Assembly (NCBI GenBank): GCA_017559505.1
Contig: JAFYSF010000036.1
Location: 1-64,000 of the forward strand
Source of the DNA: Paludibacteraceae bacterium
GTDB taxonomy: Bacteria > Bacteroidota > Bacteroidia > Bacteroidales > Paludibacteraceae
Reading direction: 5' to 3'
DNA length: 64,000 bases
Each line of letters begins with the position of its first letter. Within the stretch, counting starts at the first letter, position 1. The translations under genes and the position numbers were made by a program. Below are positions 40,916 to 53,327 of the stretch, one piece after another. The notes below the pieces were generated by a model that was not told the DNA's origin, made no database searches, and saw nothing but the letters and a program-made list of their open reading frames with translations.

Positions 40916-41770
40916 ATGTATAAACGTTCAGAATATCAATTAATTAAGAAATGACTTACTAATAGAGTAGTGCTGGTGATGATGGATGCAGTGCAACATG
41001 CCGATAAAGCACTTACAGCGGAGCGATTGTTCAGTTGGTATGCCGCATTATCTCCTATGGGGTGTAGTGGAATTATGCCAATTACAGTGGCAGCATGGCG
41101 CACAAGCACTCAACCAATGCAGGTGGTAAGTGGAGCTATGGGGAAAGAAAAAGTGCATTATGAAGTACCAGCGTCTGAAGTTGTTCCTGATGAGATGGAT
41201 AAGTTTTTGCGTTGGTTCAATCAAGAAGAGGGTATAGACCCAGTATTGAAAGCTGCAATTGCACATCTTTGGTTTGTTAATATACATCCATTCGATGATG
41301 GCAATGGTCGTCTTACTCGTATTATTACCGATATGTTGTTGGCTCGTGCTGATGGACTGCCTCAACGATTTTATAGTATGTCATCGGCTATTCTACGCAA
41401 TAAAAAGTCATATTATGAGATACTTGAATATACTGGTATGCATGGATTAGATGTTACGCAGTGGTTGATATGGTTTTTGCAAACGATGCAGGAGGCTATT
41501 GACGTAGCACACGAAAAAGTTCAGCGAGTTGTTAGAAAGAGCTTTTTCTGGCAGCGTAATATATCGCGTCAGCTTAATGAACGACAGATAAAGGTGTTAA
41601 ATCTTTTGTGGGATGGTTTTGAAGGAAAACTCAATACAAGTAAATGGGCAAAAATCACTCACATATCCCAAGCCACAGCTTTACGTGATATTCAAGATTT
41701 AGTCTCAAAAGGTCTATTGCGTGATTCGGGCGAAGGTGGTAGAAGTACGAATTATATTTTGGTAGAGTGA
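40916..41770 (+). pseudogene. Fic-family protein lacking its N-terminal domain
   Basis: The original start seems to be 40916 (MYKRSEYQLIKK), followed in the same frame by TGA at 40952. The frame resumes at VVLVMMDAVQHADK and continues to the end, so about 100 residues of the DUF4172-like N-terminal region appear deleted. The core is complete: AHLWFVNIHPFDDGNGRLTR is the Fic AMPylation motif, and a winged-helix-like C-terminus follows. The lost segment normally holds the inhibitory S/T-x-x-x-E-G helix. A shortened protein could start at GTG 40970 or ATG 40979 and would lack autoinhibition, or the locus may be dead. Confidence 0.7.
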
Positions 41771-41772
41771 TT

Positions 41773-42468
41773 TTAAATCATAAATCGTTCTAATTTATTT
41801 TTCCAGCGTTCCCAATCTGGCATTTCTTTTTGTAGTAGTTCCCAAAATGCTTTGGTGTGATTAGGATGTAGCAGGTGGCACAACTCGTGTGTAATAACAT
41901 ATTCAATACATGGACGAGGAGCCATAATTAGTCGAGTATTTAGTATTATTTTACCTTTAGGTGTACAACTGCCCCAACGATTTTCCATTTCTTGAATGTA
42001 TAATGATGATGGTTCGACTCCATACTTTAAAAATCGAGCTATTATAGGTTCGGCATATTCAGCAAATTTAATTTTTGCATGTGACTTATACCAATCTTTC
42101 ATCAACTCTTTAGCCTTAGTTTTTGGACTGCAAACTATTTCAAAATATCTACCTTTATATCTTACACTATTTGGTTTACCTTCTTCTATTTGTAATATAA
42201 ATTGTCGCCCAAGATAGTAATGTGATTCTCCGCTAATATATTGTTTTTGGGGTGTCTGTTCTCCTAATTGCTTGAAATAATTTTGTTGGCGTAATATCCA
42301 AGGTGCTTTTTTCAAAATGCGTTGTTCGATAATTTCTTTTGAAATATCTATAGGTGATAATATTTCAACATTGCCCGATGGATATACTTTAATGCCAAGC
42401 GTTTTGCGATTTGATGCTTTTATGTTATATATTATTTCGTGTGAACCAAATATTATTTTATTTTCCAT
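41773..42468 (-). CDS. YgjP-like metallopeptidase (DUF45) of the restriction operon
   Basis: 231 residues. The zinc motif is YVITHELCHLLHPNHTKAFW (HExxH plus downstream His), with ENRWGSC upstream, typical of the M48-related DUF45/YgjP group. These genes are commonly found in type I restriction operons; their role there is unknown. The last gene of the minus-strand operon, its start overlaps the hsdR stop by one base. It converges with the truncated fic gene, two bases apart. Confidence 0.88.
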   Translation of the reverse strand: MENKIIFGSHEIIYNIKASNRKTLGIKVYPSGNVEILSPIDISKEIIEQRILKKAPWILRQQNYFKQLGEQTPQKQYISGESHYYLGRQFILQIEEGKPNSVRYKGRYFEIVCSPKTKAKELMKDWYKSHAKIKFAEYAEPIIARFLKYGVEPSSLYIQEMENRWGSCTPKGKIILNTRLIMAPRPCIEYVITHELCHLLHPNHTKAFWELLQKEMPDWERWKNKLERFMI

Positions 42469-45400
42469 TATTTAAACCATTTTTCTGCTACATCCACTGA
42501 ACGATCAATGATAGAGTCCATATCATCAAAACTTAAAGGAACATTATAATTTCGTTTAATATCATCAATCAAAAAATCTTCTATTTCTAATTTCATTGAA
42601 CTTTTAAGATTGCTTTTAGTTGTCCAATCTACTACTAATGTTCCGTCTGTGAAAATATTTTTTTTGATGATTTCATCTATCTTAGTTGCTGTTATCAGAG
42701 CTAATTTGTTTATATTAAATTTATTATCATCTTTGCATACTGCTTTATATACTTCAAGACTTAATCCAAAATAAGCTCTGCCAGCATTGTTGTTTTGCAA
42801 TGATTCTGGTATTTCGCTATCTGTGTGGCTTAACACTTGATGCATAATATTTTCAGCACGTTGTAGGTATTCCGCTTCACTTATTCGCCCTAGTTTATAT
42901 TCTTCTATTGCTTCTTCTAGCATTTTAGAGAATTTTTTGAAGAATGCAGGGTCTGTTTCTATGTTTTCATTTATATATTTTGCCGTACGAGAAGCTATAG
43001 TATCAGCTTTTGCTACTTTTCCAACAATTTTCTCAACTTCTTCTGCAAATTTTTCTTTATCAAAAATATTTATCAATTCAGTTATTATTTCAACATCGCC
43101 ACTTTCAATATGAGTGTCAATTAGTTTTTGTATTTGTCCTTCATATTGCGAATAGTCAATGGTATCAGAAAAACGTTCTTGTACTGTCTTTCTCAGTTTT
43201 AAGAACATAGCTAAGTCGTTTTTGTAGCGATCTATCTGTTCTTGTGGCGTTGTTTTATGGAATTCTATTGATGAAAGAGCAATTTTCAATGTTCGAGCAT
43301 ACGTTGTTAGCCTTTCATAGAAAGTTGCACGTTTGTCTTCTAATCGCAATATTTCCCCATAAGCTTCTAAATCGTTACTATTTTTCACTGGTTTTAGAAT
43401 TTCCCACACATCGCTGTGTCGTTGAGCCAATTTTGCTACTTCATCTGCAATGTTGGTATATGTGCCATTTAGGTCTTCTTCGTCAAAATCAGTGTATATC
43501 TCTAACGCATCATTTAAATTGCTGAACACACCATAATAATCTACGATATACCCAAATTCTTTGTCATCGCATACCCTATTAACTCGTGCAATCGCTTGCA
43601 ATAGTGTATGGTCTTTTAGTTTTCGGTCAAGATAGAGTACCGTATTTTTAGGCTCATCAAATCCTGTAAGCAATTTATCAACTACGATAATTATTTCTGG
43701 TTTTTCGCTGTTTTTGAAACGATTGATAATGTTTTGTTCATATTTTTTGGGTGTGCCATGCTCGTCCATCATGCGTTTCCAAAATGCTACTTCTGTATTT
43801 GAAGTGTCGCCAAATGCATCATCTTCTCCTTCTCGAGTATCAGGCGAAGTTATGAGTACTTCTGATGAAACAATGTTTATTTCATCGAGAAATTTTTTGT
43901 ACATAATGGCCACACGTTTGCGTGGCGCAACTAATTGAGCTTTAAATTTAGAGCCCTGCCAGTTTTTCTGAAAGTGTTGTGATATATCCCATGCAATGGC
44001 GTATATTCGTTGCTCTGTTTGATTGATTTGGTCGGCACGACTAAATTTCTTTTTCATGTCGGCTCGTTGTGCATCAGTCATCCATTCGCAAATTCGGTCG
44101 AAATATCGGTCTATTGATTCTGCATGTACCATTTGTGGCACCATACGTCCTTCATATAATAGAGGTACTACTGCACCATCTTTTACAGCCTGATCTACGG
44201 TGTATATTGGTTGAATTATGCCTCCAAATTTTGCTGCCGTACTTTTCTCTTTTTTCATTAATGGCGTTCCTGTCATGGCAATAAAGCAGGCATTTTGTAA
44301 TGCTTTTTCCATTTTTATTCCCATTTCGCCATATTGACTGCGATGCCCTTCGTCTATGAGTACAAAAATATTTGGGTCTGTGAGTGGTGATTTCAATCCT
44401 CTCACTGCAGTTTCAAATTTGTTGATAATTGTTGTTATTACCGTAGAACTTTTACTTTCCAACAATTTCACAAGATTGCTACCTGTTGTGGCATTTTCTA
44501 CGTGTACTTGACATTTGCGGAATGTTGTAGTTATTTGTCTGTCAAGGTCGGTTCTGTCGGTTACGAGTATGACGCGAGGATTCTTTATCGATTTGTCGAG
44601 TAGAATAGCTTGTGCCAATAATACCATTGTCAATGATTTTCCTGAACCTTGTGTATGCCAAATCACACCACCTTTTCTTCTTCCTCCCTCTATATTACGA
44701 ACACGCTCCATCACCTTTTCTACAGCAAAATATTGTTGATAACGGGCTATTTTCTTTATGCCATCATCATAGAGTGTGTATTTGTACATCAGATTCAGCA
44801 ATCTTTCAGGGCGGCAAAGGTCATATAAATAAGCATCTTGTACTGATGGAATTAGAGGAGCACCATATTCTTCACTAGGTTCAGCACTCATTCGGTTATA
44901 TCCATTCCACGATATATCTATTCTATTACTTTTTTCGTTTACCTTTTCTGCCAATTTATAGCGGTATAGTTCTTCAGCGGTTTTGTCCGCAAATTGTTCG
45001 GTCCATTTGTTCCAAAATTTTTTAGGTGTACCTGTTGTGGCATAACTCACTTCATTTACGTTAGTGGCTAATAATAGGGCAGAATAGACGTATAGAGAGC
45101 GTATTCCATCCTCTTTTTGATTGCGTAAGTGTTGTGAAATAGCCTGGTTAAGCGAATCTTTTATATCTGGGCGTTTACATTCAATCACACATAGTGGAAT
45201 CCCATTTATAAAGAGAACAATATCAGGACGATAGGTGTCGTTCATGCCTGTGCGGCTTACTGCAAACTCTTCAGTCACGTGGAATACATTATTTTCGATA
45301 TTATTCCAATCGATATATTGCATAACATAACTTTTTTTGTCGCCATCTACTATTTGTTCGAGAGTTTTGCCTGCTGTCAGAAGGTCATAAACTGCTTGTG

Positions 45401-45680
45401 ACGCACTAATATATCCTTCCGACATAGGAAGATTTTTCAGTGCATCTATACCAGCAATTATATTTTGTTCCGAAAACATGGTAGTTCGGTATGAACTTAC
45501 TTGTACGGTATTTATCTTCTTCAATTGGTCGCGCAGTATAGGTTCGAGTAGCACATTGCTCGTACTATTTCCTCGCAACCTCATAACCTCATCAGGCGAC
45601 AAATATTTGTAGCCTAATTTTCGTAGCATTTTTAATGCAGGTATCTGACTTATATTGTTTTCTTTAAATGAGAGAGTCAT
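42468..45680 (-). CDS. hsdR: Type I restriction enzyme, R subunit
   Basis: 1070 residues. The nuclease region is near the N-terminus (residues 155-175, ending GIPLCVIECKRP). The SF2 translocase has Walker A HTQGSGKS, motif II DEGHRSQ (a variant of DEAH) and motif III MTGTP, and later motifs include DKLLTGFDEP and QAIARVNR. HsdR pulls DNA through the HsdM/HsdS complex and cuts it at a distance. Full length and intact. It sits at the downstream end of an eight-gene operon whose first gene starts at 51431. Confidence 0.95.
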   Translation of the reverse strand: MTLSFKENNISQIPALKMLRKLGYKYLSPDEVMRLRGNSTSNVLLEPILRDQLKKINTVQVSSYRTTMFSEQNIIAGIDALKNLPMSEGYISASQAVYDLLTAGKTLEQIVDGDKKSYVMQYIDWNNIENNVFHVTEEFAVSRTGMNDTYRPDIVLFINGIPLCVIECKRPDIKDSLNQAISQHLRNQKEDGIRSLYVYSALLLATNVNEVSYATTGTPKKFWNKWTEQFADKTAEELYRYKLAEKVNEKSNRIDISWNGYNRMSAEPSEEYGAPLIPSVQDAYLYDLCRPERLLNLMYKYTLYDDGIKKIARYQQYFAVEKVMERVRNIEGGRRKGGVIWHTQGSGKSLTMVLLAQAILLDKSIKNPRVILVTDRTDLDRQITTTFRKCQVHVENATTGSNLVKLLESKSSTVITTIINKFETAVRGLKSPLTDPNIFVLIDEGHRSQYGEMGIKMEKALQNACFIAMTGTPLMKKEKSTAAKFGGIIQPIYTVDQAVKDGAVVPLLYEGRMVPQMVHAESIDRYFDRICEWMTDAQRADMKKKFSRADQINQTEQRIYAIAWDISQHFQKNWQGSKFKAQLVAPRKRVAIMYKKFLDEINIVSSEVLITSPDTREGEDDAFGDTSNTEVAFWKRMMDEHGTPKKYEQNIINRFKNSEKPEIIIVVDKLLTGFDEPKNTVLYLDRKLKDHTLLQAIARVNRVCDDKEFGYIVDYYGVFSNLNDALEIYTDFDEEDLNGTYTNIADEVAKLAQRHSDVWEILKPVKNSNDLEAYGEILRLEDKRATFYERLTTYARTLKIALSSIEFHKTTPQEQIDRYKNDLAMFLKLRKTVQERFSDTIDYSQYEGQIQKLIDTHIESGDVEIITELINIFDKEKFAEEVEKIVGKVAKADTIASRTAKYINENIETDPAFFKKFSKMLEEAIEEYKLGRISEAEYLQRAENIMHQVLSHTDSEIPESLQNNNAGRAYFGLSLEVYKAVCKDDNKFNINKLALITATKIDEIIKKNIFTDGTLVVDWTTKSNLKSSMKLEIEDFLIDDIKRNYNVPLSFDDMDSIIDRSVDVAEKWFK

Positions 45681-45684
45681 ATGT

Positions 45685-46608
45685 TTATTTATTGTTTACT
45701 ATTCCAAATGGTATATGGACAGCAGGGATTTTATCTAAATGATCTAAATGACCCATTTGATCATCAAAATAAATATGAGGTCGCATAACATTTAAAATTC
45801 TACTTTTGTCAATACCACCTAAAAAGAAAGCTTCATTGATATCAATACCCCAAGAATTTAAGGTATTAATCATTCTTTCATGTACTGGTGCGTTTCGTGC
45901 AGTAACAATTGCAGTTTTAAGCATTGGTTTATATTCTGGATCTTGTTCTGCTTTACGTGTTTCTAATTTTTGATAAAATGATATTTTTTTTAATAAATCA
46001 ATAACAGGTCCGGCATTTAGTGGTACACTAGATCTTTCAGATTCATATTGTTGATATATTGGAAGACCTTGGTCTTGATAAATTTTTTCAGCTTCATCAT
46101 CAGCAAGAACTCCATCAAAGTCAAAAGCAATTCTTAATTCATTATCGTTATCATCGTCTATGACAGTTGTGTTTAAAACTCTTCCAGCCGCTAATCTATG
46201 AGCAATTGCATTGTCTACATCGGTTTTGTTTGCAGAAAGAAATAATGATGTATTAAATGATGGTAGGTATTTAAAGTGAGGTAATCCAGAAGTAAAGCCA
46301 GCTCGTGTAATATCTAATCCATAGTGTGCAATAGAGTTAAATGCTCTTAATCCAGTTTCGGGGCTATTTTTAGACATTAATATAACTTCTATAGGTTTTT
46401 CTTCTGGGAAATGATTATTTAAAGATAATAGTCTTTTAATAAAAGGAAACGCAACTCCCTTTTCAAAAGGTTTATTTACATTTGTATTTTGATATTCTTT
46501 ATATGCTTTTAATCCTTGTGCTTTAAATATACTATCAGATTCGGTAAGATTGAATAATGCACTAGAAGCTACTGCAATAACAAGTTTTTTTTCAATAGGA
46601 TATGCCAT
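45685..46608 (-). CDS. Cytosolic 5'-nucleotidase-like protein inside the restriction operon
   Basis: 307 residues. The sequence fits the cN-I (NT5C1/PF06189) family: LVIAVASSALFNL, VILMSKNSPETGLRAFNSI, the catalytic block AFDFDGVLADDEAE, and FLGGIDKSRIL. It would dephosphorylate nucleoside monophosphates. Such an enzyme has no role in the standard restriction reaction. It lies between hsdS and hsdR with short spacers (12 and 4 bases), so it is co-expressed with the system. It may be an auxiliary immunity component that depletes nucleotides, or a passenger. Confidence 0.8.
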   Translation of the reverse strand: MAYPIEKKLVIAVASSALFNLTESDSIFKAQGLKAYKEYQNTNVNKPFEKGVAFPFIKRLLSLNNHFPEEKPIEVILMSKNSPETGLRAFNSIAHYGLDITRAGFTSGLPHFKYLPSFNTSLFLSANKTDVDNAIAHRLAAGRVLNTTVIDDDNDNELRIAFDFDGVLADDEAEKIYQDQGLPIYQQYESERSSVPLNAGPVIDLLKKISFYQKLETRKAEQDPEYKPMLKTAIVTARNAPVHERMINTLNSWGIDINEAFFLGGIDKSRILNVMRPHIYFDDQMGHLDHLDKIPAVHIPFGIVNNK

Positions 46609-46620
46609 AATATATGTTTT

Positions 46621-47820
46621 CTAAAATTTTACTCGTGTTTTTCCTGTTAATAATTGTTGTATGAGTCCGCGTTTTTGTGTGCGGAGGGTTTCTAATTTTT
46701 TAATTTGGATATTTATTTCTTTATCAATTGTATTTAGTAAGTTTACTATTGCTTTTTGTTCAATAAAAGATGGTATTTTCATATTCATTGACATAAAAGA
46801 ATTTAAATCAAATGTCATTTTTTCTATATGTACACCATAGCTTGATACATAAGTTTGATGATAAAAATGTGGAGTTTTAGAATACCAATTTATAAAATTT
46901 ATATCTGTTTTATTTTTGTCTTTTGCAACAAGAGCAATATATGACCCAGATATTTTCATACCATCGAATTCTTTCGTGACTAAACCAGAAGCTCCATGTA
47001 CAATTTGCATTTTAGAAATTAAGAAATCTCCAATATGTGCCGGACGAAGATTTTTGGTTTTTATATCTTTGCCTAATAATTTATCACGATGAAATAGACC
47101 TCCTGAACGACGTTTTACACTTATTAAATCATATTCTTCATTATCATTCCATATCATATTTCTTTTGATTTCTTTTAATATTTCAGAATAAGATACTTTT
47201 TGCCATGGTGTAGTGAAGCTAGGGAGGCGGGTACGACCTGTTAAGAGGCGTTGCATAATTCCTTGTTTACGAAGTTCAAGTTTTTCGATTAGTTTACTTT
47301 GCTTTTCAATCGCCTCATCCCAAGTAGATAAAATTTCCGCAATCTTTTTCTGTTCTTCAAGTGGTGGTATAGGAATTTGTATATTGGCAATTTGAGGGGC
47401 AGTTAACTGAGGTACACCTGTACATTCAAAATAAAAAGGTTTCTTAAAATTTATGTATTCTGTAATTAATTGTCCTGTGATATTAAGTTTTGGAAATAGC
47501 ACTAATAATCTTACTATTGCATCAAAATCTATTTTTCGATACTCTGCCACACCAAGCATACCGCGACCTGTGATGGTGATACTTCCTGCTTTATAGCGTG
47601 GATGAGATGTATAACCATATAGTCCTTTATTGTCTAAAGAATTTGAAAATATAGGATAACAATGTGTGTTTGTAGATGTTTTTGAGAAATATTCTTTTTG
47701 TAAATCTCTACCAGCTGATATATAAAAACATTCACTTAATGTTTTCACTCTCCATTATTTGGGTATTATTCCAACTGCAGAATCTTTAAATCCTTTTGGT
47801 ATGTTATTTTTTGTCGTCAT
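46621..47820 (-). pseudogene. hsdS: Type I restriction specificity subunit with an in-frame stop codon
   Basis: The natural start appears to be 47820: MTTKNNIPKGFKDSAVGIIP followed by K, the usual HsdS opening. The next codon is TAA (47757-47755), after which WRVKTLSECF continues in the same frame through two target-recognition domains and two conserved helices (PPLEEQKKIAEILSTWDEAI and, near the end, TLRTQKRGLIQQLLTGKTR). Homologues usually have E or another residue where the TAA lies. A GTG at 47748 could restart a protein of 375 residues. So the subunit may be truncated, restarted or inactive. Its 5' end overlaps the 55-residue ORF. Confidence 0.7.
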
Positions 47821-47971
47821 TATCAGAAATAGGTTTTAATACGTCACCAATAGTATGTGCAATATTTAATGCCTTGTCAATATCTTCTTGGTCATTAGGG
47901 TCGCTTGTTGCTTTAATTATGTTGCCAATAAGATCTACTAAATTATTGTAATTTTCGATATCGCTATTCAT
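47804..47971 (-). CDS. Small acidic ORF, 55 residues
   Basis: MNSDIENYNNLVDLIGNIIK followed by an acidic stretch (ATSDPNDQEDIDKALNIAH) and ending PISDNDDKK. It starts 10 bases after the fic stop and overlaps the hsdS start by 17 bases, so it is placed as a tightly linked operon member. I do not recognise it. Its size, charge and position next to fic suggest a possible antitoxin or regulator, which is inference. Confidence 0.5.
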   Translation of the reverse strand: MNSDIENYNNLVDLIGNIIKATSDPNDQEDIDKALNIAHTIGDVLKPISDNDDKK

Positions 47972-47981
47972 ATTTAGGGGT

Positions 47982-49334
47982 TTATTCGTTCATGATTTTA
48001 TTTTGAATGCTTGAAATGAATTTGTTCAAAATTTCATTAATAAATTTTTCTAATTCATTTTCTTGTGGGATAATACCATATCGGTAAGTGTTTTTTGTGT
48101 CATTAACTGTAATAGTGTATTCTTCATCATCAAATTGAAAATACACAAATTGTTCTTCCATTTCACCTGCTTTTATTAAAGTTGTTGGATTTTTCATGTA
48201 GATAGTGAAATAAAATTTTTCATATTTCGATGGATTATTGTGTAAATTTTCAGTAAATGAAGAAAATGGGATTCTTTCATAACCATTATTATTGGATTGT
48301 CTTGCTTCTATTAGACATGTATTATAAAAATTGGTAAATTCATGCATAGCTTTACCTATTCTTTGTGCAAATGGTATAATGAATTTATCTGAAATTTTTA
48401 TAATTTCTTCTGCTGATTTTCTTATTATGCCTTTTCGTTTTGCTTCTGCTTCTTTTTTTAATAGTTTGATTTTCTTTTTCCAATCATCTTTTTCTTCTAT
48501 ATCTTCTCCTTTTGCTGCTTTAATGCGAAGCGTTAATGCTCGTTCTAAACATTTTGTCATATAATCTACAAAAGGTTGAATGTCTTCCAAGTTAGCATGC
48601 GCTCCATCTGATGGAATTAATCCAACGGCTATATCACAAGTGTTTAATGTGTCAAGATATTTGTCTTTCTCATCACTGCGTACGATAATCATTGGATAAT
48701 TAGCTCGAAGTAAAATGAAGTTTACAAGTAAGCGTGAAATACGACCATTACCATCATCGAATGGGTGAATACGAATATAGCGATAGTGGAATAGAGAGGC
48801 TAATTCGATAGGTGTCATTATGCCTGCTGTTTCTTCTTGGTTGTACCATTCAATCAAATCTCTCATCAGAGCAGGAGTTTCTTCTGGAGATGCGTACTCA
48901 AATCGTTCGCCAGTTTGTGTTGTAACTGTATTTGGTTGTTCCTTATATTGTCCTGCATGAATTGTTGATGTTGTTATACTACCATCTTCTAATTTTCTGT
49001 ATTTGATATAATTTTCTCGTAAAAGTGTACGATGTAATTCTCGTATAAAATATTCAGTAAGAGGCCTATCTGTGTCTTTTGCTTCTTCTTGTATCATTCG
49101 TAAACCTACATTTGAGGCTTTCATCTCTTCTAAATCGTGCATTTTGGCGTTACCATCAACTTTATCAAATATTAAAAGCATTTCTGTTTGACCATAAGTC
49201 AGTGTATTACCTTCGATGTGGTTAGAATTGTAGTTAAATTCTAACATAAATTTTTGGTCAATCTTGTTTTGCACTTCTTGTGATATTGGTTGTAGTGATT
49301 GCCACTCTTGGTATAATGATTCTATTTTATTCAT
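47982..49334 (-). CDS. Fic-family protein in the restriction operon
   Basis: 450 residues. The Fic core motif is IHPFDDGNGRISR. An N-terminal SNHIEGN matches the S/T-x-x-x-E-G/N inhibitory helix, so the protein should be autoinhibited (class II). Residues 270-345 are Lys/Glu-rich and helical; a C-terminal extension of about 100 residues follows. It would AMPylate or otherwise modify a target protein; the target is unknown. Inserted between hsdM and hsdS. Confidence 0.88.
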   Translation of the reverse strand: MNKIESLYQEWQSLQPISQEVQNKIDQKFMLEFNYNSNHIEGNTLTYGQTEMLLIFDKVDGNAKMHDLEEMKASNVGLRMIQEEAKDTDRPLTEYFIRELHRTLLRENYIKYRKLEDGSITTSTIHAGQYKEQPNTVTTQTGERFEYASPEETPALMRDLIEWYNQEETAGIMTPIELASLFHYRYIRIHPFDDGNGRISRLLVNFILLRANYPMIIVRSDEKDKYLDTLNTCDIAVGLIPSDGAHANLEDIQPFVDYMTKCLERALTLRIKAAKGEDIEEKDDWKKKIKLLKKEAEAKRKGIIRKSAEEIIKISDKFIIPFAQRIGKAMHEFTNFYNTCLIEARQSNNNGYERIPFSSFTENLHNNPSKYEKFYFTIYMKNPTTLIKAGEMEEQFVYFQFDDEEYTITVNDTKNTYRYGIIPQENELEKFINEILNKFISSIQNKIMNE

Positions 49335-49347
49335 GTTATAGATGTTT

Positions 49348-50874
49348 TTAAATTCCTAATTCTTTTAGATATTCTTTCATTTTTGTTTGAACTTCGGTAA
49401 GTTCGGCTTCGAGAGCATCAATCTCTTTTTGTACGGCTACGATGTCGATTTCAGCTTCTTCTTCGTAGGTATCTACATAACGAGGAATATTGAGGTTGTA
49501 GTCGTTTTCTTTAATTTCTTCGGGTGTAGCTATGTACGCATATTTTTCTTCGATTACGCCTGCTTGTGATTTGCCTTCGGTGAAAGCGCGATAGGTAGAT
49601 ACGATGTGTTCTATGTCTTTGTCGCGAAGGCGGTTTTGGTTTTTACCATTTTCAAATTCGCGACTTGCATCAATAAATAGTACATTCTCGCTCTTTTTGG
49701 CTTTGTTAAATATTGCTATTGCGGCTGGAATACCAGTGCCGTAGAAGAGGTTGGCTGGCAGACCAATTACTGCTTCAAGTATATTTTCTTCCACTGTTTG
49801 TTGACGAATTTTACCTTCGCTTGAGCTACGGAACAATACGCCATGAGGAATAACTACACCGACTTTGCCATGTTCGTTGGCTACTTCTAACATGTGACTG
49901 ATAAAAGCCCAATCGCCTTTACTTTTTGGTGGAATACCTCGCCAAAAACGGTTGTATTGGTCGTTGGCTGCTTCGTCTGCTCCCCATTTGTCTAATGAGA
50001 AAGGTGGGTTAGCTACAACGGTGTCAAATTTCATAAGTGCATCTCCATCTTTGAGTTTTGGATTGCGAAGTGTGTCGCCCCAGCGAATAACGGCACTATC
50101 GAAACCATGTAGAAGCATATTCATCATGGCCAATGCCCAAGTGCTTCCATTTAGTTCTTGACCATATAGCGAGAAATTGTCTGAACCTACTTCGCGACCA
50201 GCTTTGATGAGCAATGAGCCTGAACCACAAGTAGGGTCGCAGATGCGAGAACCAGGTGCGCTTTTAGTCAATTTGGCAAGTAGGGTAGATACTTCTTTTG
50301 GTGTAAAGAATTCTCCCGCTTTTTTGCCTGCATCGCTAGCGAAGTGCTCTATAAGGAACATATAGGCATCGCCAATTACATCATTATTTTCGAGGTGCGA
50401 TTCATCGAATTGCAATTTGTCGTCGGCAAAATCTTCTAATAGTTGTTTTAGTCGCACGTTGCGATCTTTAACTTCGCCGAGATTGCTACTGTTGAAACTG
50501 ATGTTTCGGAATATGCCACTACCGTCTTCACTATTGAGTTTTTCGCGATTGGCATTTTCTAAATCAACAAGGGCAATATCAATTAATTCACCAATATTTA
50601 TTGCATTACGATTGTCGTATAGGTAGTAGAATGAACTTGTTTCTGGCACTTGGAAGCGTTCACGACGCATAGCTCGCTGTGCTCTTTCGGTATCTCCTTC
50701 GTAGCGGTTTAAATATTCAGCATATTTTGATTTATTTACATCACTTATGTATTTTAAGAAGAGCATAGTCAATATATAATCTTTGTATTGACTTGGGTCA
50801 ACAACTCCACGGAAGGTGTCGCAGGCATTCCATACTATTTTATTGATGTCGTCTTGTGTGATTTTTGTACTCAT
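49348..50874 (-). CDS. hsdM: Type I restriction-modification, M subunit
   Basis: 508 residues. SAM-binding motif I is DPTCGSGSLLIKAG; the N6-adenine methyltransferase motif IV is NPPF (VVANPPFSLDKWG). The N-terminal helical domain LWNACDTFRGVVDPSQYKDYIL-like region and the C-terminal coiled-coil (DALEAELTEVQTKMKEYLKE) are normal. It methylates the recognition site together with HsdS. It starts three bases after the half-size hsdS gene. Confidence 0.95.
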   Translation of the reverse strand: MSTKITQDDINKIVWNACDTFRGVVDPSQYKDYILTMLFLKYISDVNKSKYAEYLNRYEGDTERAQRAMRRERFQVPETSSFYYLYDNRNAINIGELIDIALVDLENANREKLNSEDGSGIFRNISFNSSNLGEVKDRNVRLKQLLEDFADDKLQFDESHLENNDVIGDAYMFLIEHFASDAGKKAGEFFTPKEVSTLLAKLTKSAPGSRICDPTCGSGSLLIKAGREVGSDNFSLYGQELNGSTWALAMMNMLLHGFDSAVIRWGDTLRNPKLKDGDALMKFDTVVANPPFSLDKWGADEAANDQYNRFWRGIPPKSKGDWAFISHMLEVANEHGKVGVVIPHGVLFRSSSEGKIRQQTVEENILEAVIGLPANLFYGTGIPAAIAIFNKAKKSENVLFIDASREFENGKNQNRLRDKDIEHIVSTYRAFTEGKSQAGVIEEKYAYIATPEEIKENDYNLNIPRYVDTYEEEAEIDIVAVQKEIDALEAELTEVQTKMKEYLKELGI

Positions 50875-50876
50875 AA

Positions 50877-51431
50877 TTATATGTTTTTTATCATTTTGTA
50901 ATCTAATATCTGTTTGTGTTTTTCTGCTATGGCTTTGTAGAGGTTTTGTTCTCGTTTTTGTAGTTGGTCAAGTTCTATATATGCTTTTTGGCGTTCGATT
51001 GATGGTATTGGAATTTCTAAATCTTCTAAAACATTTTTTGTTATAGATTTAATTGCAGATCCTAAAGCATGACTCGCAAATAAGTTTTGTATAATGGGTG
51101 AATTTAGATACCATGCTACATATTCGGGCAATATTTTTTCTTTATTTTTGATTCTTATAACTATGAAAGATGGTGATGCTACGCATGCTTTGTTTGTTTC
51201 TGGAGTTATAATGCATATATTTTTGTTTCCCTTTGCCGCAAATAGTAGGTCTTTTGACGAAAGTAAGTGTTTGTTGTTTTTTTCTGGGATTGATACGTAT
51301 GACACTATTCTGTCTATGAAGTTTCCGTCTTTGTCGAAATCGCTAAGTTGCAGATATAGAGTCTCTGAATTGGGTGATGGTTTAATATATACCCCAGTTT
51401 GTATTGTCGCTATATCTTTTAATTGTACCAT
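50877..51431 (-). CDS. Half-size specificity subunit
   Basis: 184 residues: MVQLKDIATIQTGVYIKPSP opens a single target-recognition domain, followed by one conserved helical region (PSIERQKAYIELDQLQKREQ). This is half of a normal HsdS. Such half-subunits can dimerise and direct HsdM. It is the first gene of the operon, so the window carries one half-size and one full-size (nonsense-carrying) specificity gene for the same HsdM. Confidence 0.85.
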   Translation of the reverse strand: MVQLKDIATIQTGVYIKPSPNSETLYLQLSDFDKDGNFIDRIVSYVSIPEKNNKHLLSSKDLLFAAKGNKNICIITPETNKACVASPSFIVIRIKNKEKILPEYVAWYLNSPIIQNLFASHALGSAIKSITKNVLEDLEIPIPSIERQKAYIELDQLQKREQNLYKAIAEKHKQILDYKMIKNI

Positions 51432-51554: not shown

Positions 51555-51600
51555 ATGTACTACTATATGTTGTTTGTACTACTATTTTTAGTAGTACAAA
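51555..51600. promoter_or_regulatory. Palindromic operator-like repeats upstream of the restriction operon
   Basis: A perfect inverted repeat TTTGTACTACT-ATTTTT-AGTAGTACAAA (51573-51600) plus a third half-site ATGTACTACTAT at 51555. Probably a regulator-binding site; the regulator is not in the window. Confidence 0.45.
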
Positions 51601-51626
51601 TGATGGGTGTTTTTATTTTATAATAT

Positions 51627-51670: not shown

Positions 51671-52291
51671 TTATTTTAAGTTTTGTTTTAAAAAATTTTT
51701 CAAGGGTTCTAATGTTTCAGCATTTAAATTCCAATAATTTTCATTTTTAAAGAGCCAATTTCCACTGCCAAGTTTGTCTCGTTGGTTTTTACTTAATTGT
51801 TGAGAGCTAATGTATGTGTGTAATTTCCCTTTTAGGTTTGGGGTGTTGTATAGTGGATTTCCGTTTGCATCTTTTGCCCCTGAAATACATTTTTCATAGT
51901 CTTCAAAACAGTCGAAAAATGTAGGGTGTAAATTTCGGCGAGCTGTACTTTCCATCAAGTTTTCAATATCTCCATCATCTTGATTGTTTGGATAGATAAA
52001 GTAGGGGAATGATAATGAATGAGCATTCATGCCATTGTCTATTTCCACTTTTCGTTTGGCGAATCCAACACCTTTTTCTTTAGTATCAGCATCAGTAAGG
52101 AGAATAATTTGTTCTCCATTATCTTGCGCTAAACGCATTTGGTTAAGAATGGTTTCATTATATAAATTACCTATGCCATCCATAAATATGAAATCAACCT
52201 TTTTTTTAGGAAAAAAGACATCTAAAATAGTTTTGATAAAATGATATTCTGTTGTCTCTTTCTTTTTTGCTTCAATAAAAATCTTATTCAT
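51671..52291 (-). CDS. TOPRIM-fold (DUF3226/AriB-like) protein
   Basis: 206 residues. MNKIFIEAKKKETTEYHFIK provides the TOPRIM glutamate and ILLTDADTKEKG the D-x-D, so the nuclease-type metal site is present. The rest includes FPYFIYPNNQDDGDIENLME, another typical acidic block. The gene starts one base after its partner ATPase. ATPase + TOPRIM pairs make up several defence systems (OLD, Gabija-like, PARIS). This one most resembles the split arrangement of PARIS (AriA/AriB), but the TOPRIM family looks like DUF3226 rather than DUF4435. Confidence 0.75.
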   Translation of the reverse strand: MNKIFIEAKKKETTEYHFIKTILDVFFPKKKVDFIFMDGIGNLYNETILNQMRLAQDNGEQIILLTDADTKEKGVGFAKRKVEIDNGMNAHSLSFPYFIYPNNQDDGDIENLMESTARRNLHPTFFDCFEDYEKCISGAKDANGNPLYNTPNLKGKLHTYISSQQLSKNQRDKLGSGNWLFKNENYWNLNAETLEPLKNFLKQNLK

Positions 52292-52292
52292 A

Positions 52293-53327
52293 TTACCTTA
52301 CTTCAATTTCTTGGTTAATAGAGTAGTCTAAACTTTCTAAAGAATAATGATAAGCCTTTAATTCATCATCATTTGTTTTTAAGAGTTTGAATGTGGCAAT
52401 AAGGTCTTCTTTTTTATTGAGTGCACTGTCTCGTAGTCCTTTTATCGAGTCTATGTCATGGGTTGTTACGAATAGTTGTGTGTTGTTTTTTATTGCGGCA
52501 TCAATTAAGACTTTCCATAAATCACACATTACGGAATAGTGAAAACCATTGCTGATTTCATCTATAAGCAACATTCCGTCTTTGCAATCATACATTGTTG
52601 TTAAAAGAGATACTATTTTGCGAGCACCATCTCCCATCATATTTATAGGGATACGTTTTTCTAAGCCTATATCAACTAGCATTTCATTATCTGTGAAAAC
52701 AAAATCTTTGACGCGAGGTTCTATAAGTTTTAAACCTTCTATTATAAAATGTTCGTCTTTGTTTTCTTGTATTTTTTTTAATCCTTGAATAGATGTTTTG
52801 AAATCGAATTTAGGACTTAAATATACGCATTGTAATGATTCTGTATAGTTGTTAGCAATAACACGATTTACGTTTTTTGTATCTTTGGTGTCGAATTCTA
52901 ATTGAGCATAAAATGGAGTGTCGTTGATTTGAAAATCAAGTTTAAGTCCATATTTCCCTTCTTCGACGTTAGAAAGAATATTTGCATTGTCGGTATTAAG
53001 AGTTATATTTTCTTGATTTTCTTTGAATAGGGTGATGTTGAGATTGCGGATTTCGCCATCAATCAGCTGAATAGATATGGGTTGTTTTGAATCTAAATTG
53101 TAAAAATTTAAAATAAGGTCATTGAAATTTGATTTGCCATAATCACGTATAAAGTTCACATTTATTGGTAGCAAAGGATTTGACAATCCGCTGGCTAAAA
53201 ACAACGATTCTAATAAAGAAGACTTCCCACAATTATTTTTTCCAAAGAAAAGATTTATTTGTTTGAATCCTTCTATGGATGCATAGTGTATCCCTCTGAA
53301 TCGTTCTATTTTTATTTTGTTAAACAT
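52293..53327 (-). CDS. AAA ATPase of a two-gene defence pair
   Basis: 344 residues. An SMC/RecF-like ATPase: IKIERFRGIHYASIEGF, Walker A GKNNCGKSS, signature region INMMGDGARK, Walker B MLLIDEISNGFH, and H-loop TTHDID. No coiled-coil of SMC length, so it belongs to the AAA_15/AAA_21 group found with TOPRIM partners. It probably senses phage proteins and controls the TOPRIM effector. Its own promoter lies about 55 bases upstream. Confidence 0.85.
   Translation of the reverse strand: MFNKIKIERFRGIHYASIEGFKQINLFFGKNNCGKSSLLESLFLASGLSNPLLPINVNFIRDYGKSNFNDLILNFYNLDSKQPISIQLIDGEIRNLNITLFKENQENITLNTDNANILSNVEEGKYGLKLDFQINDTPFYAQLEFDTKDTKNVNRVIANNYTESLQCVYLSPKFDFKTSIQGLKKIQENKDEHFIIEGLKLIEPRVKDFVFTDNEMLVDIGLEKRIPINMMGDGARKIVSLLTTMYDCKDGMLLIDEISNGFHYSVMCDLWKVLIDAAIKNNTQLFVTTHDIDSIKGLRDSALNKKEDLIATFKLLKTNDDELKAYHYSLESLDYSINQEIEVR

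Follow-up and report, generated by a model that had tools for sequence, protein, structure and literature searches.

A PF06189 5'-nucleotidase gene flanked by hsdS and hsdR in a type I restriction-modification operon from the Bacteroidota

The hsd operon and its nucleotidase gene

The window, which is the whole 64,000-nucleotide stretch of DNA analysed here (positions 1 to 64,000 of contig JAFYSF010000036.1, assembly GCA_017559505.1), comes from a Paludibacteraceae bacterium and includes a type I restriction-modification (R-M) operon. All genes of this hsd operon lie on the minus strand, in the order half-hsdS, hsdM, Fic, hsdS, nucleotidase, hsdR and YgjP-like metallopeptidase. The half-length HsdS (50877-51431, upstream of hsdM) is 184 aa long with one Methylase_S domain, and was identified using Pfam and by comparison with the related (sister) operons described below. 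It is 35-60% identical to the half-S proteins of six sister operons and, as its own family is kept in these operons, it is not a random fragment. hsdM (49348-50874; Pfam and NCBIfam) encodes an N6-adenine methyltransferase, and the position between hsdM and hsdS, slot 1, is occupied by a gene for a Fic-domain protein (47982-49334; Pfam and sister operons). At the other end of the operon are hsdR (42468-45680; Pfam and NCBIfam), encoding the type I restriction subunit, and the gene for the YgjP-like metallopeptidase (41773-42468; Pfam), a conserved partner downstream of hsdR in the sister operons.

The hsdS gene is listed as an open reading frame with a GTG start (46621-47748; ORF list and Pfam). 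When examined by hand, its conserved N-terminal part was found to extend upstream to an ATG at 47820, with an in-frame TAA (47757-47755) as codon 22; the listed GTG is three codons past this stop. As the TAA interrupts an N-terminal stretch that is conserved in the sister HsdS proteins, the window hsdS may be truncated or defective. It is possible that an N-terminally shorter HsdS is made from the GTG after the stop, and an assembly error is also possible. A 55-aa open frame (47804-47971, minus strand, coordinates assigned by hand) lies between the Fic gene and hsdS, and its end overlaps the upstream hsdS ATG.

The nucleotidase gene (45685-46608, minus strand) is the cargo of slot 2, the position between hsdS and hsdR. 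It starts with ATG and encodes 307 aa with no internal stops. The protein was classified using Pfam, PADLOC, alignments and a structural model. It matches Pfam PF06189, which we take to be the cN-I family, with E 8.1e-122 (406 bits against a cut-off of 28.2), covering profile positions 1-301 of 302, i.e. full length. It also matches the PADLOC profile PDC-S08 over its full length (430 bits, E 8e-130), and has no NCBIfam match. hsdS ends at 46621, leaving a gap of 12 nt (46609-46620) before the nucleotidase gene, and hsdR starts at 45680, leaving 4 nt (45681-45684) after it. With gaps of this size on the same strand, the gene lies inside the hsd operon with no room for a promoter of its own. 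A scan for consensus promoters gave a count at the level of shuffled sequence and was uninformative. The sequence-only reading, which had described an intact cN-I-type nucleotidase 12 and 4 bases from hsdS and hsdR, is thus borne out by the ORF, the Pfam match and the coordinates.

Upstream of the half-S gene there is a long inverted repeat of 17 pairs (TTTGTACTACTA...TAGTAGTACAAA, 51568-51605), with an extra TAGTAGTACA half-site. This repeat is a candidate operator of the whole hsd operon. The region directly upstream of the operon (51671-53327) encodes an AbiLi-like ATPase, matched in PADLOC at 4e-56, together with a DUF3226 protein; the two probably form a separate two-gene defence system. 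A gene for a SoFic-like Fic protein (40970-41770) on the opposite strand converges on the YgjP gene, and the two ends are 2 nt apart.

Fold and active site of the nucleotidase

Motifs I to IV of HAD phosphatases are DxD, T/S, K and DD, respectively. The nucleotidase has these motifs, and the residues concerned (D163, D165, T236, K268, D282 and D283) are invariant in alignments of 19 and 60 sequences (A1 and A2) that include the window protein. An AlphaFold model of the nucleotidase has a mean pLDDT of 93.3 and a pTM of 0.90. The Foldseek ranking of this model against the PDB was weak, with weak E-values, no clean match, and unrelated-looking top rows with low TM-scores; a second look using VIA-align was used in its place. 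A HAD fold was recovered in this way. Residues 146-304 align with Pnkp1 (4xrp; Z 11.9, rmsd 2.8, 130 aligned) and residues 157-307 with human cytosolic 5'(3')-deoxyribonucleotidase (4yih; Z 8.8, rmsd 3.3, 127 aligned), and the C-terminal half also matches acid phosphatases. Residues 6-146 align with the phosphatase domain of T4 Pnkp (5uj0; Z 11.7, rmsd 2.6, 119 aligned). A sequence search for solved relatives found none below E 0.7.

The N- and C-terminal halves of the nucleotidase also align with one another in a profile alignment (E 4.2e-15, 138 columns, 17% identity). In this alignment, read by hand, D163, D165, K268, D282 and D283 face A14, S16, H111, S125 and A126, and the only matching catalytic position is T236, which faces S79. 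As the halves align and the N-terminal copy is without the catalytic residues, the nucleotidase is predicted to be a tandem HAD protein with a duplicated fold, in which the N-terminal copy (approximately residues 6-146) is dead and the C-terminal copy (approximately residues 151-307) is catalytic.

The hsdS-hsdR slot and the occurrence of PF06189 genes

HsdR relatives were found in 62 of the 358 genomes of the taxonomic family (E <= 1e-60). Besides the window, 18 genomes encode an HsdR segment with an identity of 50% or more. The operons of 13 of these, L197-L209, were fetched and make up the sister set (HsdR 56-84% identical to the window HsdR, n=13); G286, G269, G009, G257 and G343 were left out. 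Within contig reach, the backbone of half-S, hsdM, slot 1, hsdS, slot 2, hsdR and YgjP is kept in all 13. Slot 2 is empty in three (L198, L199 and L200) and contains varied cargo in the remaining ten. In eight of these ten there is a PADLOC match at 1e-39 or better, to various systems, and slot 2 is therefore not randomly filled. It is a variable slot in which defence genes are found.

The strong PADLOC matches are to HAD proteins of family PDC-S34 in L197 (5695-6546, with a GIY-YIG protein) and L206 (6439-7320, with an AlbA protein), an AriAB-like system in L201 (with an AlbA protein), a UG5-nitrilase reverse transcriptase (RT_UG5-nitrilase) in L202 (with a 247-aa ORF and an AlbA protein), an AriA/GajA/OLD-like ATPase in L203, a SMODS/AGS_C CBASS cyclase in L204 (with a 185-aa ORF and an AlbA protein), a mad6-like protein kinase in L207, where hsdS is beyond the contig end, and an HNH-SAVED CBASS effector in L209 (with a SMODS protein, a 157-aa ORF and DUF3800). 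Slot 2 of L205 encodes a 287-aa protein with weak matches to nucleoside deoxyribosyltransferase and a TIR effector, and that of L208 contains three ORFs, one of them DUF3800. Five further hsd loci with a less similar HsdR were also examined. The slot contains Mrr-like and YhcG genes in L210, DUF4917 (PDC-S21) in L211, a 189-aa ORF in L212, and genes for DarT and Macro proteins in L213; it is empty in L214.

The closest sister, G317 (L197, HsdR 84% identical), has the other type of HAD protein, PDC-S34, in slot 2. BLASTP of the window nucleotidase against this protein aligned only a 10-residue motif, and PDC-S34 was rejected as a BLASTP homologue of the nucleotidase. The window and G317 share 76% DNA identity from 45684, the first base past the nucleotidase stop, to 41772, and again over half-S and hsdM (51245-49345). 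In hsdS only short blocks align, and the cargo does not align. This homology edge at the cargo end fits an exchange of cargo in a fixed slot. That slot 2 also houses HAD phosphatases from another family is suggestive, although this applies to two sister operons only (L197 and L206).

The slot between hsdS and hsdR is already in print (PMC12255303); in the accessible text of that paper it is described as a place where defence systems may be exchanged by recombination, a potential hotspot. In both cases a metallopeptidase gene lies downstream of the operon (M48 in PMC12255303, YgjP-like in the window). The cargo differs, being a toxin-antitoxin pair in the system described there and a nucleotidase in the window; in L213, a DarT/Macro pair occupies the slot. 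Hence, the slot itself is known, and the PF06189 nucleotidase is a new occupant.

The window nucleotidase is the only PF06189 gene in its genome. The family was found in 1 of 9 genomes in the genus, 14 of 358 in the taxonomic family and 14 of 395 in a sample of the phylum, and in none of the 14 control genomes included in these searches. With so few carriers at each level, the window gene was probably acquired laterally. An origin from phage was considered and rejected, as the family was represented in 3 of 50,697 phage records and 5 viral contigs, with no PHROG match.

The sequence-only reading had proposed that an association of this family with hsdS and hsdR should recur in other genomes, and a recurrence was found. 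Among 27 Bacteroidota carrier genomes, an hsdM-type methylase (at least 150 bits) is within 10 kb of the nucleotidase in three, G000, G518 and G578. The operon in G518 has the order hsdM, hsdS, a gene for a 358-aa unknown protein, nucleotidase, AlbA protein, DUF2442, hsdR and YgjP, making this a second, distant Bacteroidota lineage with the nucleotidase between hsdS and hsdR. The near-identical sister G578 shares the operon, split over two contigs by a break inside the nucleotidase gene. However, 58 methylases in approximately 87 Mb would place about 1.4% of random genes within 10 kb of one, and about 0.4 cases would be expected in the other 26 genomes (both calculated by hand). By this estimate, with the window set aside and G518 and G578 counted as one lineage, proximity to hsdM in Bacteroidota is not above chance. 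In G380, genes upstream of the nucleotidase encode an HSDR_N protein of 374 aa and a protein of the PD-Lambda-1 type. The 358-aa protein of the G518 operon (L045:8146-9222), whose gene is 1 nt upstream of the nucleotidase gene, has no Pfam or PADLOC match. In G607 (L048/L215), a PF06189 gene lies 12 nt after a gene whose 1281-aa product weakly matches an N6-methylase, possibly another restriction-type context.

Among relatives on genome contigs, clear hsdM and hsdR genes are present in 2 (L092 and L108) of the best 80 of 536 confirmed loci, a ranking that favours likeness to the window sequence and in which 50 loci extend for 5 kb or more to either side. This is about chance level, and an association with hsd as a general property of PF06189 was rejected. 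A different picture was seen in Escherichia coli, where 96 of 5,426 genomes matched one query; a second query found 31 genomes, mostly with short matches. In 11 of 12 E. coli loci, which are not independent and were picked among the matches listed to span the identity range, hsd genes are within 10 kb of the nucleotidase; one of the 11 (L166) has hsd remnants only, its hsdR and hsdM being annotated as partial pseudogenes. In the twelfth locus, the ES4 plasmid copy, no hsd gene is seen in a stretch that ends 1.8 kb upstream. The cargo between hsd and the nucleotidase varies in E. coli (Dsr1, SIR2, AAA plus HNH, and unknowns), and the islands are found at tRNA-Leu, tRNA-Thr and tRNA-Sec genes, i.e. 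at different insertion sites.

In a plasmid collection, 46 records matched, and 14 of these were read, one (H7) without annotation. Three of the 13 annotated records include hsd genes (Arcobacter, E. coli and Klebsiella). The Klebsiella match falls into two pieces, on a 5.4-Mb record that has the size of a chromosome. Other plasmid copies lie near DUF262, SIR2 or Hhe/AbiH genes, and the majority of the plasmid copies are without hsd. In a 125-row tree of full-length nucleotidases only (111 of 118 matched loci and 14 others from annotated regions), the hsd-neighbour state changes at least seven times, with support from SH-aLRT only. L117, L122, L042, L140, L055, L056 and L131, which are not full length, were left out of this tree. 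L043 and L057 had no ORF match, and L155, L162 and L164, as well as partial copies, are also absent. The survey of hsdS-hsdR neighbourhoods proposed by the sequence-only reading thus gave a divided answer: the sister slots contain mostly defence cargo, but hsd genes are near only 2 of the best 80 of 536 relatives. The association with hsd thus belongs to the slot and to certain lineages rather than to the PF06189 family.

Possible role of the nucleotidase

The idea that the gene is an added effector of a composite defence operon holds in part. The slot contains defence systems in most sister operons, but the family is not generally linked to hsd. Overall, we lean towards the nucleotidase being an exchangeable, nucleotide-depleting cargo that a Bacteroidota type I R-M operon carries between hsdS and hsdR, a reading we hold only somewhat more firmly than its negation. 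The behaviour of the slot in the sister operons is the strongest support for a defence role: because related operons fill it with known anti-virus systems, the nucleotidase is probably an interchangeable defence part. The enzyme itself is probably a widespread metabolic one that is now and then recruited as cargo, with depletion of (d)NMPs suggested by its fold and family. It would be expressed together with the restriction enzyme and would dephosphorylate nucleoside monophosphates when a phage infects the cell. The likeliest substrates would be dNMPs and AMP from the breakdown of phage or host DNA and of energy pools. These monophosphates would then not be rephosphorylated for phage DNA synthesis, and restriction would thereby be backed up. 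The degenerate N-terminal HAD copy would be the likely site of allosteric control. The in-frame stop in the window hsdS speaks against this reading, and the restriction system may be inactive in this strain.

The most serious competitor, to which we give a smaller but substantial chance, is that the gene is a passenger, an ordinary nucleotide-salvage enzyme in a recombination hotspot that takes any gene, with no function in defence. The neighbours of its close relatives are in keeping with this. Genes adjacent to the nucleotidase in the best 80 of 536 loci matched 23 PADLOC families at 1e-15 and distant genes of these loci matched 74, a rough comparison in that families rather than proteins were counted. 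After removal of proteins >1200 aa, 143 adjacent and 114 distant ones were available, and 90 of each were drawn at random for it. There is thus no excess of PADLOC families next to the nucleotidase in these loci, and close relatives are as a rule outside defence islands. By Pfam, the adjacent genes in the same 80 loci are mostly non-defence (LysR and AraC regulators, gyrase, transporters and others), and no listed Pfam family occurs in more than 3 of the 90 adjacent proteins. No conserved partner gene was found in 119 fetched loci and the window stretch, except that a chromosomal context is common to the Oxalobacteraceae. Besides the housekeeping genes next to close relatives, this shared Oxalobacteraceae context and the sporadic distribution of PF06189 also favour a passenger, as does a Pseudomonas aeruginosa panel in which PDC-S08 was equally split between resistant and susceptible strains, according to the accessible part of PMC10855318. 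However, strong PADLOC matches in eight of the ten occupied sister slots, the recurrence of the embedded gene in G518 and the hsd linkage in the E. coli islands all argue against a slot that takes any gene.

A more specific form of the defence reading is a restriction-coupled effector, in which the dead N-terminal HAD lobe would sense either the Hsd complex or a phage-altered nucleotide. The live C-terminal lobe would in turn clear the dNMP/AMP pool, so that products of DNA breakdown could not be reused for phage genomes. We regard this model as tentative and rather improbable in its full form.

Still more doubtful is a guard arrangement like that of PrrC, where the Hsd complex would keep the effector inactive until a phage block of restriction frees it, leading to nucleotide depletion and a growth stop. 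As described in the accessible parts of PMC3874165 and PMC2610378, prrC in EcoprrI lies within a type I operon as one effector-like gene, as does the nucleotidase gene, and the conserved non-catalytic HAD copy could bind a regulator. However, PrrC is an anticodon nuclease with ABC ATPase motifs that the R-M enzyme keeps silent, whereas the nucleotidase belongs to the HAD phosphatases and has no Pfam ATPase or nuclease match. Many relatives among the best 80 of 536 loci stand alone with no hsd genes nearby, so the enzyme needs no Hsd silencing in cis, and the hsdS-hsdR slot also takes self-controlled cargo (CBASS, DarTG). Least likely is pool protection, the removal of damaged, modified or signalling nucleotides produced by infection or by neighbouring defence enzymes without starving the phage: E. 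coli copies are beside sirtuin-type cargo (Dsr1, SIR2) and cN-I-type enzymes use monophosphates (accessible text of PMC10383617), but a conserved partner is absent from all contexts and the window has no sirtuin-type neighbour.

For the preferred reading, an exchangeable nucleotide-depleting cargo, there are partial precedents, each cited from the accessible text. The TgvAB genes of the Vibrio cholerae VPI-2 type I operon (PMC11411939) are also separate embedded defence genes, though they encode a two-protein type IV restriction system. The dNTPase defences Clover CloA and SpdGTPase (PMC12265719) have in common with the nucleotidase the proposed principle of nucleotide pool depletion, but they are dGTPases whose active site is of the HD type and whose substrates are triphosphates, whereas the nucleotidase has a HAD fold and, by family, acts on monophosphates. 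Human cytosolic 5'-nucleotidase I (cN-IA/cN-IB), a pair of eukaryotic metabolic enzymes, resembles the nucleotidase by family only; for cN-IA, a preference for AMP, a low Km for pyrimidine dNMPs and activation by ADP are given in the accessible text of PMC10383617. PDC-S08, a PADLOC single-gene phage defence candidate, is the same family as the nucleotidase over its full length, with candidate status only. PDC families reportedly stem from work like the preprint of Payne and colleagues on embedded defences. Among the papers searched, one (PMC10855318) names PDC-S08 and gives no function, one on trypanosomes names PF06189, and the accessible text of a review of microbial 5'-nucleotidases (PMC8475336) makes no mention of phage. 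Our literature search, with most subscription papers and preprints outside its scope, found no phage test of the PF06189 nucleotidase family.

As the usual neighbours of close relatives are non-defence genes, a PDC-S08 match by itself should not be taken to mark a defence system. If the restriction-coupled model were true, the nucleotidase would be a second line of defence behind restriction. If the enzyme is protective, hydrolysis of monophosphates by a HAD enzyme would join the nucleotide-depleting defences, and PDC-S08 would have a concrete test case; the E. coli W chromosome carries a relative, ECW_RS23705 (L149:10001-10966), with an hsd operon as its neighbour. Beyond the nucleotidase, a single place in one Bacteroidota hsd backbone is filled by CBASS genes, a reverse transcriptase, ATPases, a kinase or HAD proteins, and a slot with such varied cargo could be mined for new defence genes.
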